Assembly: GCA_029838195.1 (NCBI GenBank)
Contig: JALGVJ010000006.1
Location: forward strand, 1-64,000
Reading direction: 5' to 3'
Source of the DNA: Promethearchaeota archaeon
Lineage (GTDB): Archaea > Asgardarchaeota > Lokiarchaeia > Sigyniarchaeales > SOKP01
Length of the DNA: 64,000 nt
Shown: positions 12,612 to 49,197 of the stretch, piece by piece
Numbering within the stretch: the stretch's first letter is position 1
How the letters are laid out: every line of letters begins with the position of its first letter
Program-made: the position numbers and the translations under genes
The notes under the pieces: model-generated
Told to the model about the DNA's origin: nothing
What the model saw: the letters and a program-made list of their open reading frames with translations, nothing else
The model's database searches: none

Positions 12612-13244
12612 TTATATTGGATCAGAGGAGGGTTTAAATGCTTGTTTTATCTCGTGAGGCTGTTTATGTAGTAATAGAGCTAAAGTAACCTCTCCTCTCG
12701 TTTTTTCAATTAAATTTCTAGCAACATCAGTTTTATGACGCAATTCTTGAGTGATACCCTTTGGATAATCCAAGGAAAATAAATAGGTATAAATTTCGTC
12801 CATTTCGCTTAAAAGCGTCTCGATATTTTCCATATTTCCTTTCCGCATGTTATCCAAGATATATCTTCTTAATTCACCAATCACGTCCGCTAAGCCCAAG
12901 GAAAAGTTGATTTCATCAATTTTTAATTCACTCGGAGCAGGAATTTCTTGATTATTAATAATGGAAAATAGGCATAAAGCTTCAGTGAATTCTTGCTCGG
13001 CTGTTTTCAAGTATTTTCCAAAATATAAAGGATGTGTATTTACAAGCCGAGTTAATTCTTCATGCATAGAACTCAATTCAGCTATTTCTTGATGATATTT
13101 TTCATTCTCCTTTCTATGAATGGATTTTATCGCAATACTGCAATTTCGAATCATTTCTCGAGACAAGCGTAAAATTTTTTCCCTTTCTTCTTCCATGTCG
13201 TCAAGCTTTTTCGTAATTTCTGCGAAAATCTTTTTAAGATTCAT
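12612..13244 (-). CDS. Translin-family RNA-binding protein
   Basis: A 210-residue all-helical protein of the archaeal translin family (COG2178 type). Signatures are the EFTEALCLFSII helix, the GLADVIGELRR helix and YPKGITQELRHKTDVARNL, the most conserved translin stretch, followed by TRGEVTLAL. Translins form ring-shaped multimers that bind single-stranded RNA or DNA; archaeal members are linked to RNA processing. The gene leads a leftward operon and ends 24 bases before sepS, which suggests co-expression with tRNA(Cys) charging. Confidence 0.85.
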   Translation of the reverse strand: MNLKKIFAEITKKLDDMEEEREKILRLSREMIRNCSIAIKSIHRKENEKYHQEIAELSSMHEELTRLVNTHPLYFGKYLKTAEQEFTEALCLFSIINNQEIPAPSELKIDEINFSLGLADVIGELRRYILDNMRKGNMENIETLLSEMDEIYTYLFSLDYPKGITQELRHKTDVARNLIEKTRGEVTLALLLHKQPHEIKQAFKPSSDPI

Positions 13245-16119: not shown

Positions 16120-16650
16120 CTATTCCTCTATTTTGTGAACTTCTAAGCATTTGTGGGCAATCCTTTCAAACATTTCAGCCACATTTTCCCCCGTCTTCGC
16201 TGAAGTTTCGATATAATCTGCATTTAATTTTTTCGCAAGAGCTTCGGCTTCAGAACTATCTACTTTCCTCTCTAAATCAATCTTATTGCCTATAATAATT
16301 ATCGGAATTTGCTTTTTCACGCTTTTTTTTATGGAAGCAATCCATCCAGGGAGTTTAAGCAAGGATTGAGTAGAATCCACGGCATAGACACCCAGAGCCG
16401 CATTACTCCCTTTAAAATAAAGTGTTCTAATGATTTGGAAGCGCTCATCACCCCCAATATCCCAAAGGAGCAACCTTACTTTTTTATTATCTATTTCCAA
16501 GTCTTTAATTAAAAAATTAGTACCAATCGTCTTTTTTAAGTCTTCCGTAAAGGAATTCTCGATGTACCGTATTAATAAAGAAGTTTTTCCCGCTCCAGGG
16601 GGGCCAAATAATGTTATTTTAAATTTATAAAAAAAGCTCTCCTCGATTAT
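16120..16650 (-). CDS. Ras/Arf-like small GTPase lacking a canonical start codon
   Basis: All G motifs are present: P-loop GPPGAGKTS (residues 16-24), switch I TIGTNF, WDIGG (63-67), NKID (122-125) and ETSAK (148-152), in about 176 aa with no C-terminal prenylation Cys. The first canonical start in frame is a TTG at 16500, after the P-loop, which would give a dead protein. The frame is open back to a TAA upstream, and a perfect AAGGAGG sits five bases before an ATA at 16650 and eight before an ATC at 16647. I take one of these as the start. The residue after WDIGG is Asp instead of catalytic Gln, so hydrolysis may depend on a partner. Confidence 0.8.
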   Translation of the reverse strand: MIEESFFYKFKITLFGPPGAGKTSLLIRYIENSFTEDLKKTIGTNFLIKDLEIDNKKVRLLLWDIGGDERFQIIRTLYFKGSNAALGVYAVDSTQSLLKLPGWIASIKKSVKKQIPIIIIGNKIDLERKVDSSEAEALAKKLNADYIETSAKTGENVAEMFERIAHKCLEVHKIEE

Positions 16651-19647: not shown

Positions 19648-19748
19648 GTAAGATTAATTTATAATAAGAAGAATAATTTTTATTCTTTTAGAACCTTTAT
19701 TCATGTAACTTAAAATTTACTATAAAATTAAAGTGCTTGTTAAAACCC

Positions 19749-20984
19749 ATGTTCTTTACAGAAGAGCAAATGCAAAGAATCCGTTTCTTGCATTTTAAAA
19801 TTAAACATCTTGAAACTGCCTTGGAAAAACCCGAGGAAACCTTTAGCCTTGACGATTTGAACCTCATTTTAGAATATACCATGATTTTAAATATAAATTA
19901 CCAAAATCACAGTCATAAACAAATATTAAAAGAATTGAATATTACTTCTCATTTTCATGATCCCGTGGAGAATAAAGATATAGAGATCTCGGACTTAATT
20001 TTTGAATGTGCACGAGTCTTATGGGTCTTGGCAAGAGCTTATTCTCAACTTTCCGAACAATATGAGGAACAAGAAGAATGGGATAATGCTATCATTGCAT
20101 TAGTAGAGGCGAGCAAGTATTTAAAAACTGCGGCATATTTCAGTGCGGCAGCAATATACCAAACGGAAAAAGGAAATGTCTTAAATCCTGAAGAACTAGA
20201 ATTAAGTTCTGAACAAGCAAGAATAGATGCGCAAGGAATGGCCGCTCTAAAAGAAGAATCCTTGGATAATTCTAAATATTTCGCGTCAAAATTATATGCG
20301 GGATTGAGCGCTTTATCTAAGCGCCTATTTTATTTAAGAAAGCATGAAGAGAAAAAAAAACAACAAATCAGAGCCCAATTTCACTATGATATGGGAAAAG
20401 CGTGTTATTTGAAAGCTAAAGCATCCATTGAATCTTCTATCATTAATATTAACAAGGAAAAAGTAGAAAAGCTACAAAATAAAGCTCATTGGTATTTTAA
20501 TAAGGCAAGAGAAATCTGGAGTTCCATGCTGACCAATTTAAAGGAGCTAACAGAGGAGGAGAAAGAAATCATTCAACATAATCTTGAAATCGTGGAAGAG
20601 ATAATAGAACAATACAACAAGCCCGTACTAGAATATGAGGAAATCAAAAAAATTCAAGATCCCGAACCCATTATCATCGTTCCTGAAAATTTGGCTCCTT
20701 TTGTCCCAAAATCGACGGTCTATCTCACGAAATTCGTGCCAAAAGATTTAAATATTAAACGGTTTAAGAAATTTCAATCAAAAAAACTTGAGAAAAAAAT
20801 ACCCTATAGTAAAAAAGAAAAACTATTGGATAAAAAAGCAGCAATCGTGAGGACCATTAATGAAATAAAAGCATTAAAGGAAAACAATGAAATAGATCTT
20901 CAAAAATTTGCTCAAATGATGGAAAAATATTCCACTAAACTACAAATGATCGATACGGCGTTAGAGAAACTCAGTAAAGAATGA
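19749..20984 (+). CDS. BRO1-domain-like helical protein
   Basis: About 411 aa, nearly all helix. The central part (about 85-245) has the pattern of the BRO1 domain of ALIX/Bro1: tetratricopeptide-like helices (VLWVLARAYSQLSEQYEE), an AQGMAALKEESLDNSKYFA helix where BRO1 has its LAQAQE block, a following SKLYAGLSALSKRL helix and an FHYDMGKACYLKAKA helix where BRO1 has its A-x-YY stretch. A proline-rich linker (EPIIIVPENLAPFVPK) and a C-terminal coiled coil follow, as in ALIX. In eukaryotes BRO1 binds ESCRT-III. The alternative is a plain TPR protein. The frame also allows a TTG at 19737. No ESCRT gene is in view. Confidence 0.5.
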   Translation: MFFTEEQMQRIRFLHFKIKHLETALEKPEETFSLDDLNLILEYTMILNINYQNHSHKQILKELNITSHFHDPVENKDIEISDLIFECARVLWVLARAYSQLSEQYEEQEEWDNAIIALVEASKYLKTAAYFSAAAIYQTEKGNVLNPEELELSSEQARIDAQGMAALKEESLDNSKYFASKLYAGLSALSKRLFYLRKHEEKKKQQIRAQFHYDMGKACYLKAKASIESSIININKEKVEKLQNKAHWYFNKAREIWSSMLTNLKELTEEEKEIIQHNLEIVEEIIEQYNKPVLEYEEIKKIQDPEPIIIVPENLAPFVPKSTVYLTKFVPKDLNIKRFKKFQSKKLEKKIPYSKKEKLLDKKAAIVRTINEIKALKENNEIDLQKFAQMMEKYSTKLQMIDTALEKLSKE

Positions 20985-21004: not shown

Positions 21005-21544
21005 TCATTGATATAAATCTTCTCTTTTTGCTTTCCCATATCTCTGACGATTTTTTTCCAGCTCGTATTTTCTTTCTTGTTCTTCTTGAAAAACGAGATC
21101 ATGGACTTCTTTAAAAACCAACCCTAAAAGGGAGATCTCCATGATAATGATGAGTGCGAGCATCATTTTTTCAAGCTCATGTAATTGGCGAAAAAATAAT
21201 AAGAATAAAAAAACCACGTGAGGTAAATAAATGCAAGATACAATACCTATCCTTTTTCCATACCTAATGAGATGCTTATCCTCCAAAACAAATATATTCT
21301 TAAAAATTCTTGCTTCCATGATATAATATGCGCAAAAGATTAAATTAATGGAACAAAGAATGAGAATGAAGGTCAAATCTTCCGGTTCTAATGCAATATA
21401 TGGCTTTATGATGTACGATCCGAGCATGAAGGTTAAGGAAAAAACAAAAAGTACAAAACTAAGAGAAATCAATCCTTGATAATAATCTCGAAAATCCACC
21501 ATGACGAGTTTGAAAAAATACGGGGTAATTATTTCTAATTCCAA
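21005..21544 (-). CDS. Hypothetical four-helix membrane protein
   Basis: A 179-residue protein with four clear hydrophobic helices (beginning near LISLSFVLFVF, ALEPEDLTFILIL, GIVSCIYLPHVVF and MLALIIIMEISL) and a basic, charged C-terminal tail (QEEQERKYELEKNRQRYGK). The glutamate before helix 2 and the regular loop lengths suggest a compact bundle. I do not recognise it. It is convergent with the BRO1-like gene and ends 20 bases from it. Confidence 0.55.
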   Translation of the reverse strand: MELEIITPYFFKLVMVDFRDYYQGLISLSFVLFVFSLTFMLGSYIIKPYIALEPEDLTFILILCSINLIFCAYYIMEARIFKNIFVLEDKHLIRYGKRIGIVSCIYLPHVVFLFLLFFRQLHELEKMMLALIIIMEISLLGLVFKEVHDLVFQEEQERKYELEKNRQRYGKAKREDLYQ

Positions 21545-21700
21545 TTAATAAATATAGTAATTTTCTTAATTAATATACTTTAATTTTTCTTTTAAAGAAT
21601 AATGCGAGATATTTTTAATCTTTCATGATGGGAAGCCAAGGATTAAATTCTTGGAAAAATTAAATTTACTTAAAAGGTCGCAAAAATTAAGGTAAATATT

Positions 21701-21964
21701 ATGAGTGAAACTCTACCATTGTTGATGTATATTAAAAACATGTTAGCAGATCTCATCTATATAAATTCGGTCATTGCGCTGGAATTACTTAAAATCACGG
21801 AGAACACGGCGGCCTTGAGAAGAGGAGAAGACTTTTTTAATAATAGTGCTTGTAAATCAGAGCATGAAGAAATTACCACGAGGATCATGGAACTATTAAA
21901 AAAATATAAAAATCAAACTCAAGAATATCAATCTTTAAAACATCATTTTATTAACCACGAGTAA
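21701..21964 (+). CDS. Small helical hypothetical protein
   Basis: An 87-residue, all-helical product starting at ATG 21701 (MSETLPLLMYIKNMLADL). It has two predicted helices, the second charged and coil-like (EEITTRIMELLKKYKNQ), and two Asn-Asn turns. No family is recognised. An AAGG 13 bases before the ATG is a weak ribosome site. Composition is similar to real genes nearby, but a chance frame cannot be excluded. Confidence 0.4.
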   Translation: MSETLPLLMYIKNMLADLIYINSVIALELLKITENTAALRRGEDFFNNSACKSEHEEITTRIMELLKKYKNQTQEYQSLKHHFINHE

Positions 21965-48102: not shown

Positions 48103-49197
48103 ATGATAAAAAAAAATAAAATTGGAATCGTTTCTCATGAAAATTTCACTTACATGCATGCACCTCTTTATCCTCGTCCTTTATTTACTTCTCATGAAAA
48201 TCCTCTCAGGGTCAAATCGATTTTAGATTATTTTAACAGAATTGATTTATTTTCGAATGAACAAATTGTTAAACTTATTCCGCAACTAGTTACTAAAAAG
48301 ATTTTATATTTAACTCATTCAGCATATCACGTGAACTTGATAAGGAGATTATCTCGACAAGGAGGAGGATTATTAGGAGACGAGGTTTTCATCACGCACG
48401 ATACCTTTAAGCTGGCAAGGCTTGCAGCGGGAGGTGCTATTGAAGCCATGAAGAGCGTGATTCAAGGAGGAGTTAATCAATCTTTTGCCCTCGTGCGACC
48501 TCCTGGCCATCATGCAATGCGTGATAACGCTTCTGGATTGTGCATCTTTAATAATATCGTGGTTGCGATTAATTTTTTGAGAAATGAGCCGCAATTTAAG
48601 AAAAAAATTGCTATTATTGATATTGATAGCCATTTTGGGGATGGCATCGCTCAATTTTTCTATGAAGATCCTTCAATATTATATTTCTCCATTCATGAAC
48701 ATGATTTCATAGAAGGGGAAAAAGGTTTCATCACAGAATTAGGAGAAGGGGACGGACTTGGCACGAACATAAATGTTCCCGTTCCTCTTGGCCTCACGGA
48801 CTCCGATTTCTTGGATTGCTTGTCAATCTTACCTTCTATATTGAATCAATTTCAGCCCAAATTGATCGTGGTGGCATGCGGTTTCGATTTTCATTTTTCG
48901 GACCCCATTGGAAATGGTTTTTTGACGAGTTTATCCTATTATAATTTTGCCCGCCTTCTCATGGAGCTTGCCACGGAACTTTGTGAGGGAAAAATTTGTT
49001 TCATATTAGAAGGAGGATATAGCATCACAGCTTTACCATTTTGCGTCCATGCCATCATAAAGGCTATTTTAAATTCAGACTATAAGCGTCCTCCTTTTGA
49101 ATTTTTAGATTTCTCTCCATTTTCTAAAAAAGAAGAGATAACAAAAATAAATTCTATCTTAAAACAAAAACTAATGCAGTATTGGTCTCTGGACTAA
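48103..49197 (+). CDS. Histone-deacetylase-fold deacetylase
   Basis: A 364-residue protein of the arginase/HDAC superfamily. The charge-relay pair is His136-His137 in RPPGHHAMRDNASG. The zinc ligands are Asp175 and His177 in IDIDSHFGDG and Asp262 in CGFDFHFSDP. The catalytic Tyr306 is in LEGGYS, and the entrance loop SHENPLR is also present. All residues needed for zinc-dependent deacetylation are intact. Relatives act on acetylated lysine, polyamines or small acetyl compounds; DNA-binding proteins such as Alba could be substrates, which is inference only. Confidence 0.88.
   Translation: MIKKNKIGIVSHENFTYMHAPLYPRPLFTSHENPLRVKSILDYFNRIDLFSNEQIVKLIPQLVTKKILYLTHSAYHVNLIRRLSRQGGGLLGDEVFITHDTFKLARLAAGGAIEAMKSVIQGGVNQSFALVRPPGHHAMRDNASGLCIFNNIVVAINFLRNEPQFKKKIAIIDIDSHFGDGIAQFFYEDPSILYFSIHEHDFIEGEKGFITELGEGDGLGTNINVPVPLGLTDSDFLDCLSILPSILNQFQPKLIVVACGFDFHFSDPIGNGFLTSLSYYNFARLLMELATELCEGKICFILEGGYSITALPFCVHAIIKAILNSDYKRPPFEFLDFSPFSKKEEITKINSILKQKLMQYWSLD

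Follow-up and report, generated by a model that had tools for sequence, protein, structure and literature searches.

In eukaryotes, cargo and deubiquitinases are coupled to ESCRT-III by BRO1 proteins, among them the membrane-cutting adaptors ALIX and yeast Bro1, and a single lokiarchaeal open reading frame raises the question whether this part of the sorting machinery is also present in archaea. The frame lies within the window analyzed in this work (i.e., the whole stretch of 64,000 nucleotides), and a preliminary description had read its product as a BRO1/ALIX-like protein. On this issue the literature is split: a Bro1 homolog, a claim which coincides with the one considered here, was mentioned among the ESCRT-III regulators of Asgard archaea by Eme et al. 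2023 (PMC10307638), whose main text gives it without sequence or lineage and whose homolog may belong to the family described below, whereas in a 2024 paper (PMC10936438) Bro1 was regarded as not identifiable in these archaea. Our literature search returned neither a description of an Asgard BRO1 family by sequence nor a description of a JAMM-BRO1 fusion.

Localization and conservation of the gene

The coding sequence of the BRO1-like protein (19749..20984, + strand; ORF call supported by homologs) begins with ATG at position 19749 and ends, stop included, at 20984, which gives a frame of 411 aa. This ATG is a likelier start than the TTG at 19737, since the homologous proteins begin at the same FF-x-EE residues. 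Homologs with 64–72% identity over the whole length, one gene per record, were found in 28 named Lokiarchaeial records, and all related loci in named records (n = 29) belong to Candidatus Lokiarchaeota or Lokiarchaeia. With the domain profile, the BRO1-like gene was detected in 58 of the 65 genomes of the host family (f1). Moreover, the flanking genes are syntenic in up to 24–25 of the 29 loci, and this conservation, together with the full-length identity, indicates that the ORF is a gene under selection rather than a frame that arose by chance.

The neighborhood comprises an ATP-grasp protein gene located upstream on the opposite strand, genes for a NifU-like protein and an alpha/beta hydrolase (all three assigned with Pfam), as well as a gene for a PRPP synthetase-like protein, which was read from the sequence. 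Two small ORFs without an assigned family, one encoding a small membrane protein (21005-21544, − strand; read from the sequence) convergent with the BRO1-like gene and the other following it (21674-21961, + strand), are each kept in 23–24 of the 29 loci. Elsewhere in the window, genes of eukaryotic flavor encode a Translin-family protein (12612-13244, − strand) and a histone deacetylase-family protein (48103-49197, + strand). There is also a Ras-family GTPase gene (16120-16500, − strand), in which, counted in the frame started at ATG/GTG/TTG, the profile match does not begin before position 41; this gene probably starts upstream, as the stop-to-stop frame reaches 16674.

In the synteny comparison of the lokiarchaeal loci, no ESCRT gene was found among the neighbors of the BRO1-like gene. 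Adjacency to ESCRT-III, Vps4, or ESCRT-I/II genes was likewise absent, and the ESCRT-III genes of the host are placed on other contigs. The host genome carries two of them, at C22:138579 and C87:81207, one beside a Vps4-type ATPase (identified by eye); at this locus (L150) the AAA ATPase gene (2-1114, − strand) adjoins the ESCRT-III gene (1420-2049, + strand). At the end of the tail, both host ESCRT-III proteins (L149 and L150) have a short stretch that is helix-like, charged, and leucine-bearing. The co-occurrence of the domain with ESCRT-III, which had been proposed as a check, turned out to be true (74 of the 76 genomes with the domain), and yet it is uninformative, because ESCRT-III is present in 213 of the 228 Asgard genomes searched (139 of the 152 genomes without the domain) and none of the ESCRT genes is adjacent.

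Direct sequence searches and enlargement of the family

Searches with the query alone against Pfam, NCBIfam, and PDB sequences gave no usable match and none to BRO1, and therefore a sequence-only annotation would describe the protein as hypothetical. Sub-threshold Pfam matches of the query to DUF5375, profilin, and TPR_2 were judged to be due to chance. Reciprocally, screening of 228 Asgard genomes with the BRO1 profile (PF03097) yielded only sub-threshold matches and none above the cut-off; the Pfam gathering score was not reached, the best E-values of family relatives being 0.0005–0.0018. A profile built exclusively of lokiarchaeal sequences was too narrow, as it scored 6.8% against BRO1 and did not reach beyond family f1.

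Among the sub-threshold PF03097 matches there was a 520-aa protein of family f27 (L074; genomes G176, G178, and G179), for which BRO1 is the best Pfam family (E-value 0.0018). Used as a phmmer query, it recovered the lokiarchaeal family over the whole domain, with E-values up to 1e-12, and also proteins of four further genomes (G051–G054; 6e-15 to 2e-8) and of the f20 genomes. Two weak N-terminal matches, in genomes G129 and G168, were kept out of the argument.

Predicted fold of the protein

The full-length AlphaFold model, built on 29 lokiarchaeal sequences, is of moderate confidence (pLDDT 75, pTM 0.50), and the predicted secondary structure is entirely helical with the exception of a single beta-hairpin. 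Helices a1–a3 (residues 5-62; 19761..19934, + strand) form an N-terminal bundle that resembles the wide end in BRO1 domains, which agrees with the alignment to the BRO1 profile. They are followed by the two-stranded hairpin FHDPVENKDIEI (residues 68-79, strands 68-71 and 76-79; 19950..19985, + strand), which, in both the model and the profile alignment, lies immediately ahead of helix a4, as does the hairpin of BRO1 domains described in PMC3230590. Helices a4–a9 (residues 83-263; 19995..20537, + strand) make up three TPR-like helical hairpins corresponding to the BRO1 core, as indicated by AlphaFold, Foldseek, and the profile alignment, and after them come one further helix and a long loop, with a helical hairpin at the C-terminus of the model. 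In the published order of the BRO1 domain (PMC3230590), the a1–3 helical bundle, the b1-b2 hairpin, and the three TPR-like hairpins a4–9 are accompanied by an extended loop on the concave face, and the moderate-confidence model presents the same elements in the same order, in line with the helix order noticed previously.

A proline-containing linker is present at residues 301-352, and within it the lokiarchaeal alignment contains the near-invariant stretch IQDPEPIIIxPENLAPFVPK. In the window protein, the near-invariant segment IQDPEPIIIVPENLAPFVP (residues 303-320; 20655..20708, + strand) is placed by the alignments where BRO1 domains have their extended loop, and a P-E-P or P-Q-P form recurs in distant relatives. 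The C-terminal part is a charged helical hairpin or coiled coil in the AlphaFold model (residues 355-410; 20811..20978, + strand), and neither a V domain nor a C-terminal proline-rich domain (PRD) was found, the approximately 100 residues after the BRO1-like domain being a loop and the 56-residue helical hairpin. Thus, of the features listed in the preliminary description, the linker is present but "proline-rich" was an overstatement (7 Pro in 52 residues), the C-terminal coiled coil exists but is far too short for the V domain of ALIX, and the likeness to ALIX holds for its BRO1 domain and does not extend to the whole protein.

As reference structures, the BRO1 domains of ALIX (PDCD6IP; 2oew), HD-PTP (5cru), BROX (3uly and 3zxp), and yeast Bro1 (1zb1) were considered. 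In the Foldseek search of the PDB with the full-length model, ranks 1–14 were all occupied by BRO1 domains (ALIX, HD-PTP, and BROX; ALIX 2oew being first) with probabilities of 0.99–1.00 over approximately 300–395 columns, and the next match reached 0.38. The E-values for BRO1 were borderline (1e-3 to 2e-2) and the TM-scores low (approximately 0.2–0.35), which is expected, as the global arrangement of the model is uncertain. The outcome named beforehand as speaking against a BRO1 protein, i.e., a generic TPR or 14-3-3-like bundle as the best structural match, did not appear, and 14-3-3 was found in the list only at an E-value of about 1. A domain-only model (residues 1-313) had a higher pTM (0.64) and a lower pLDDT than the full-length one and placed the BRO1 domains of ALIX and HD-PTP at ranks 1–4; designed helical repeats were interleaved with BRO1 in this search, and the separation was no better than for the full-length model.

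Profile-profile comparison with BRO1 domains

After enlargement of the family, a 19-row Asgard domain alignment was set against four BRO1 domains with sequences checked against the PDB chains (ALIX, HD-PTP, yeast Bro1, and BROX). HHalign gave a probability of 90.6% and an E-value of 1.3e-6 over 281 columns, colinear from end to end, with query residues 15-312 aligned to approximately 43-348 of ALIX, a span wider than the residues 85-245 that had been predicted. Reversed-alignment controls scored 0.2–0.3%, the best of 180 decoys made by block-permuting the BRO1 alignment reached 41% (score of 38.2 vs. 54.4 for the real alignment), and eighteen neighbor families used as controls did not exceed 0.6%. 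When any one subfamily was dropped, 36–80% remained. An hmmsearch of PDB sequences with the 19-row profile placed the HD-PTP BRO1 domain at an E-value of 0.11, behind short repeat proteins, a match which we take as suggestive but not as proof.

It should be considered whether the protein is a generic TPR-like helical scaffold, the BRO1 likeness of which arose by convergence of the TPR core. A TPR-like Asgard family scores 86% against the TPR core of the query, and therefore part of the BRO1 signal could be generic; indeed, the core taken alone prefers this family (84%) over BRO1 (2%). The low TM-scores point in the same direction, and a TPR-like protein of family f15 (L066) likewise obtains a sub-threshold BRO1 match in Pfam (E-value 6e-8), with TPR_2 being better. 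However, the hairpin-a4-a5-a6 part alone (residues 50-170) scores 65% (E-value of 6e-5) with BRO1 and no more than 1.6% with TPR controls; as this split puts the BRO1 match in the non-TPR part, the signal found there is not generic. The 14 best PDB matches, the colinear profile match with its permutation and reversal controls, and the hairpin, a1–3 bundle, and concave loop modeled in BRO1 order also speak against mere convergence, which we consider very improbable. BRO1 homology beyond a generic TPR signal is well supported, and the lokiarchaeal 411-aa protein very probably adopts the BRO1 fold.

The f15 proteins themselves (L066, 1456-2685, − strand; L072, 502-1764) were rejected as BRO1 relatives, since TPR models score equally or better; these TPR-like helical proteins could be either ordinary TPR proteins or a further BRO1-like family at a greater distance.

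The alignment also located the LAQAQE-like block, the presence of which had been anticipated, at residues 158-165 (RIDAQGMA; 20220..20243, + strand), with a family consensus of R-I-L-A-Q-S-I-A and A-E-A-Q in the f27 relatives. Its Q162 aligns with Q196 of the ALIX LAQAQE motif, a glutamine that all four solved BRO1 domains share and that is kept in 15 of the 19 Asgard rows (the f20 rows are gapped), and E86 pairs with ALIX E119. Hence, the family shares with BRO1 domains these two residues, the order of secondary structures including the hairpin before a4, the TPR-like core, and the concave loop. In contrast, identity is only about 13–15%, below the Pfam cut-off, the N-terminus is approximately 30 residues shorter, the BRO1-invariant ALIX residues N126 and P324 are not kept in the Asgard alignment, and the lokiarchaeal protein lacks the Phe105 loop and the CAAX tail, as well as the V domain and PRD.

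Diversity of the Asgard relatives

The proteins recovered from G051–G054, members of three other families in the same class as the host, consist of an N-terminal JAB domain (Pfam E-values of about 1e-15 to 1e-14) fused to a BRO1-like domain (L139, 4577-6337; L140, 579-2312; L141, 4791-6590; L142, 4915-6744). The JAMM residues H-S-H-P...S-x2-D are present as judged by eye, which makes these relatives similar to deubiquitinases of the AMSH/Rpn11 type, unlike the window protein, which itself has no JAB domain. To our knowledge, eukaryotic JAMM enzymes are never fused to a BRO1 domain, so we know of no eukaryotic counterpart of the JAMM-BRO1 fusion. At three of the four loci (L140–L142), the fusion is followed downstream, within about 2 kb, by a gene for an AAA ATPase that bears a PRS2 N-terminal domain, and this neighbor could indicate a degradative or proteasome-like role. 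Four lokiarchaeal JAB proteins (L180, L181, L185, and L189) were rejected as BRO1 carriers, as they appear to have other C-terminal regions, read by eye as TPR.

The copies of family f20 have a zinc-ribbon-like C-terminal tail; genes nearby encode an actin-like protein and a small GTPase, and a separate JAB gene is located 4–5 kb away. At L143 (1-10999), and also at L144–L147, the cluster comprises Ras-like and Arf-like GTPases, the actin-like protein, JAB, the BRO1-like protein with its zinc-ribbon-like tail, and additionally a DEAD-box helicase-like protein of approximately 1350 aa.

Lokiarchaeal genomes also carry BRO1-like paralogs with N-terminal HhH motifs (L060, 5979-7979; L064, 5600-7600; L061, 2903-4894), sometimes as tandem pairs (e.g., G158:C15 and G152:C26). 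Immediately downstream of the HhH-BRO1 gene, a membrane protein of approximately 175 aa is encoded in a frame that overlaps or abuts this gene, which suggests translational coupling to a membrane partner.

Putative ESCRT-III-contact surface and proposed function

The positions which we take to be CHMP4 contacts of ALIX are F199, I212, and L216. L216 corresponds to L182 and is hydrophobic in all rows, I212 corresponds to F178 and is hydrophobic mainly in the lokiarchaeal rows and polar in other subfamilies, whereas F199 corresponds to A165, a small residue, and this contact is not kept. Of these, I212 was confirmed as a CHMP4 contact by the I212D mutation of ALIX (PMC3230590). As judged from the alignment, the ESCRT-III-binding surface is only partly conserved, and because the CHMP4-binding positions are kept in part, ESCRT-III binding by the BRO1-like protein is plausible.

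It is probable, in our opinion, that the window gene encodes an Asgard BRO1-domain protein with putative ESCRT-III docking and a role in the ubiquitin-ESCRT pathway, presumably that of an adaptor. The N-terminal bundle, the hairpin, the three TPR-like hairpins, and the loop on the concave surface, with a short coiled-coil hairpin after them, would form a curved domain that probably serves as a docking platform for a short helix of a partner. By analogy with ALIX, Bro1, and BROX, this partner would most likely be an ESCRT-III tail. Such docking may connect ESCRT filaments with cargo tagged by ubiquitin or with the removal of ubiquitin, and the C-terminal hairpin may dimerize the protein or bind on the cargo side, which in ALIX is the task of the V domain. 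Yeast Bro1 recruits the deubiquitinase Doa4, and since the JAMM fusion of the sister families parallels this pairing, the protein may be placed at the ubiquitin-ESCRT interface. By this analogy, the strongest clue to function comes from the JAMM fusion, which supports a tie of the domain to ubiquitin removal.

The same fusion loci allow for another explanation, i.e., that the BRO1 fold has a non-ESCRT role in a ubiquitin-proteasome-like or AAA-unfoldase pathway, as a scaffold for substrates or partners by which the JAMM deubiquitinase would be brought together with an AAA ATPase of the PRS2/Rpt-like type. The downstream PRS2-type gene in three of the four JAB-BRO1 genomes fits it, as do the partial retention of the ESCRT-III-contact positions and the lack of an ESCRT neighbor at the lokiarchaeal gene. 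Nevertheless, the gene adjacency need not reflect a functional link, the examined lokiarchaeal, f20, and f27 copies are not located beside that AAA gene, and the BRO1 domains known to date act mainly with ESCRT, so that we regard this explanation as rather unlikely and prefer the ESCRT-linked adaptor.

More tentatively, and with slightly less than even expectation, the stand-alone coiled-coil, HhH-BRO1, BRO1-zinc-ribbon, and JAMM-BRO1 forms may be seen as a diversified Asgard BRO1 family, in which the fusion would unite in one protein the pairing of Bro1 and deubiquitinase known from eukaryotes, and the coupling of ubiquitin removal to ESCRT through BRO1 would predate eukaryotes.

The family delimited here, widespread in Lokiarchaeia and defined by sequence, fold, and fusion evidence, makes BRO1-ESCRT-III binding in Asgard archaea directly testable, and archaea appear to possess a component of the eukaryotic sorting machinery that they were once thought to lack.
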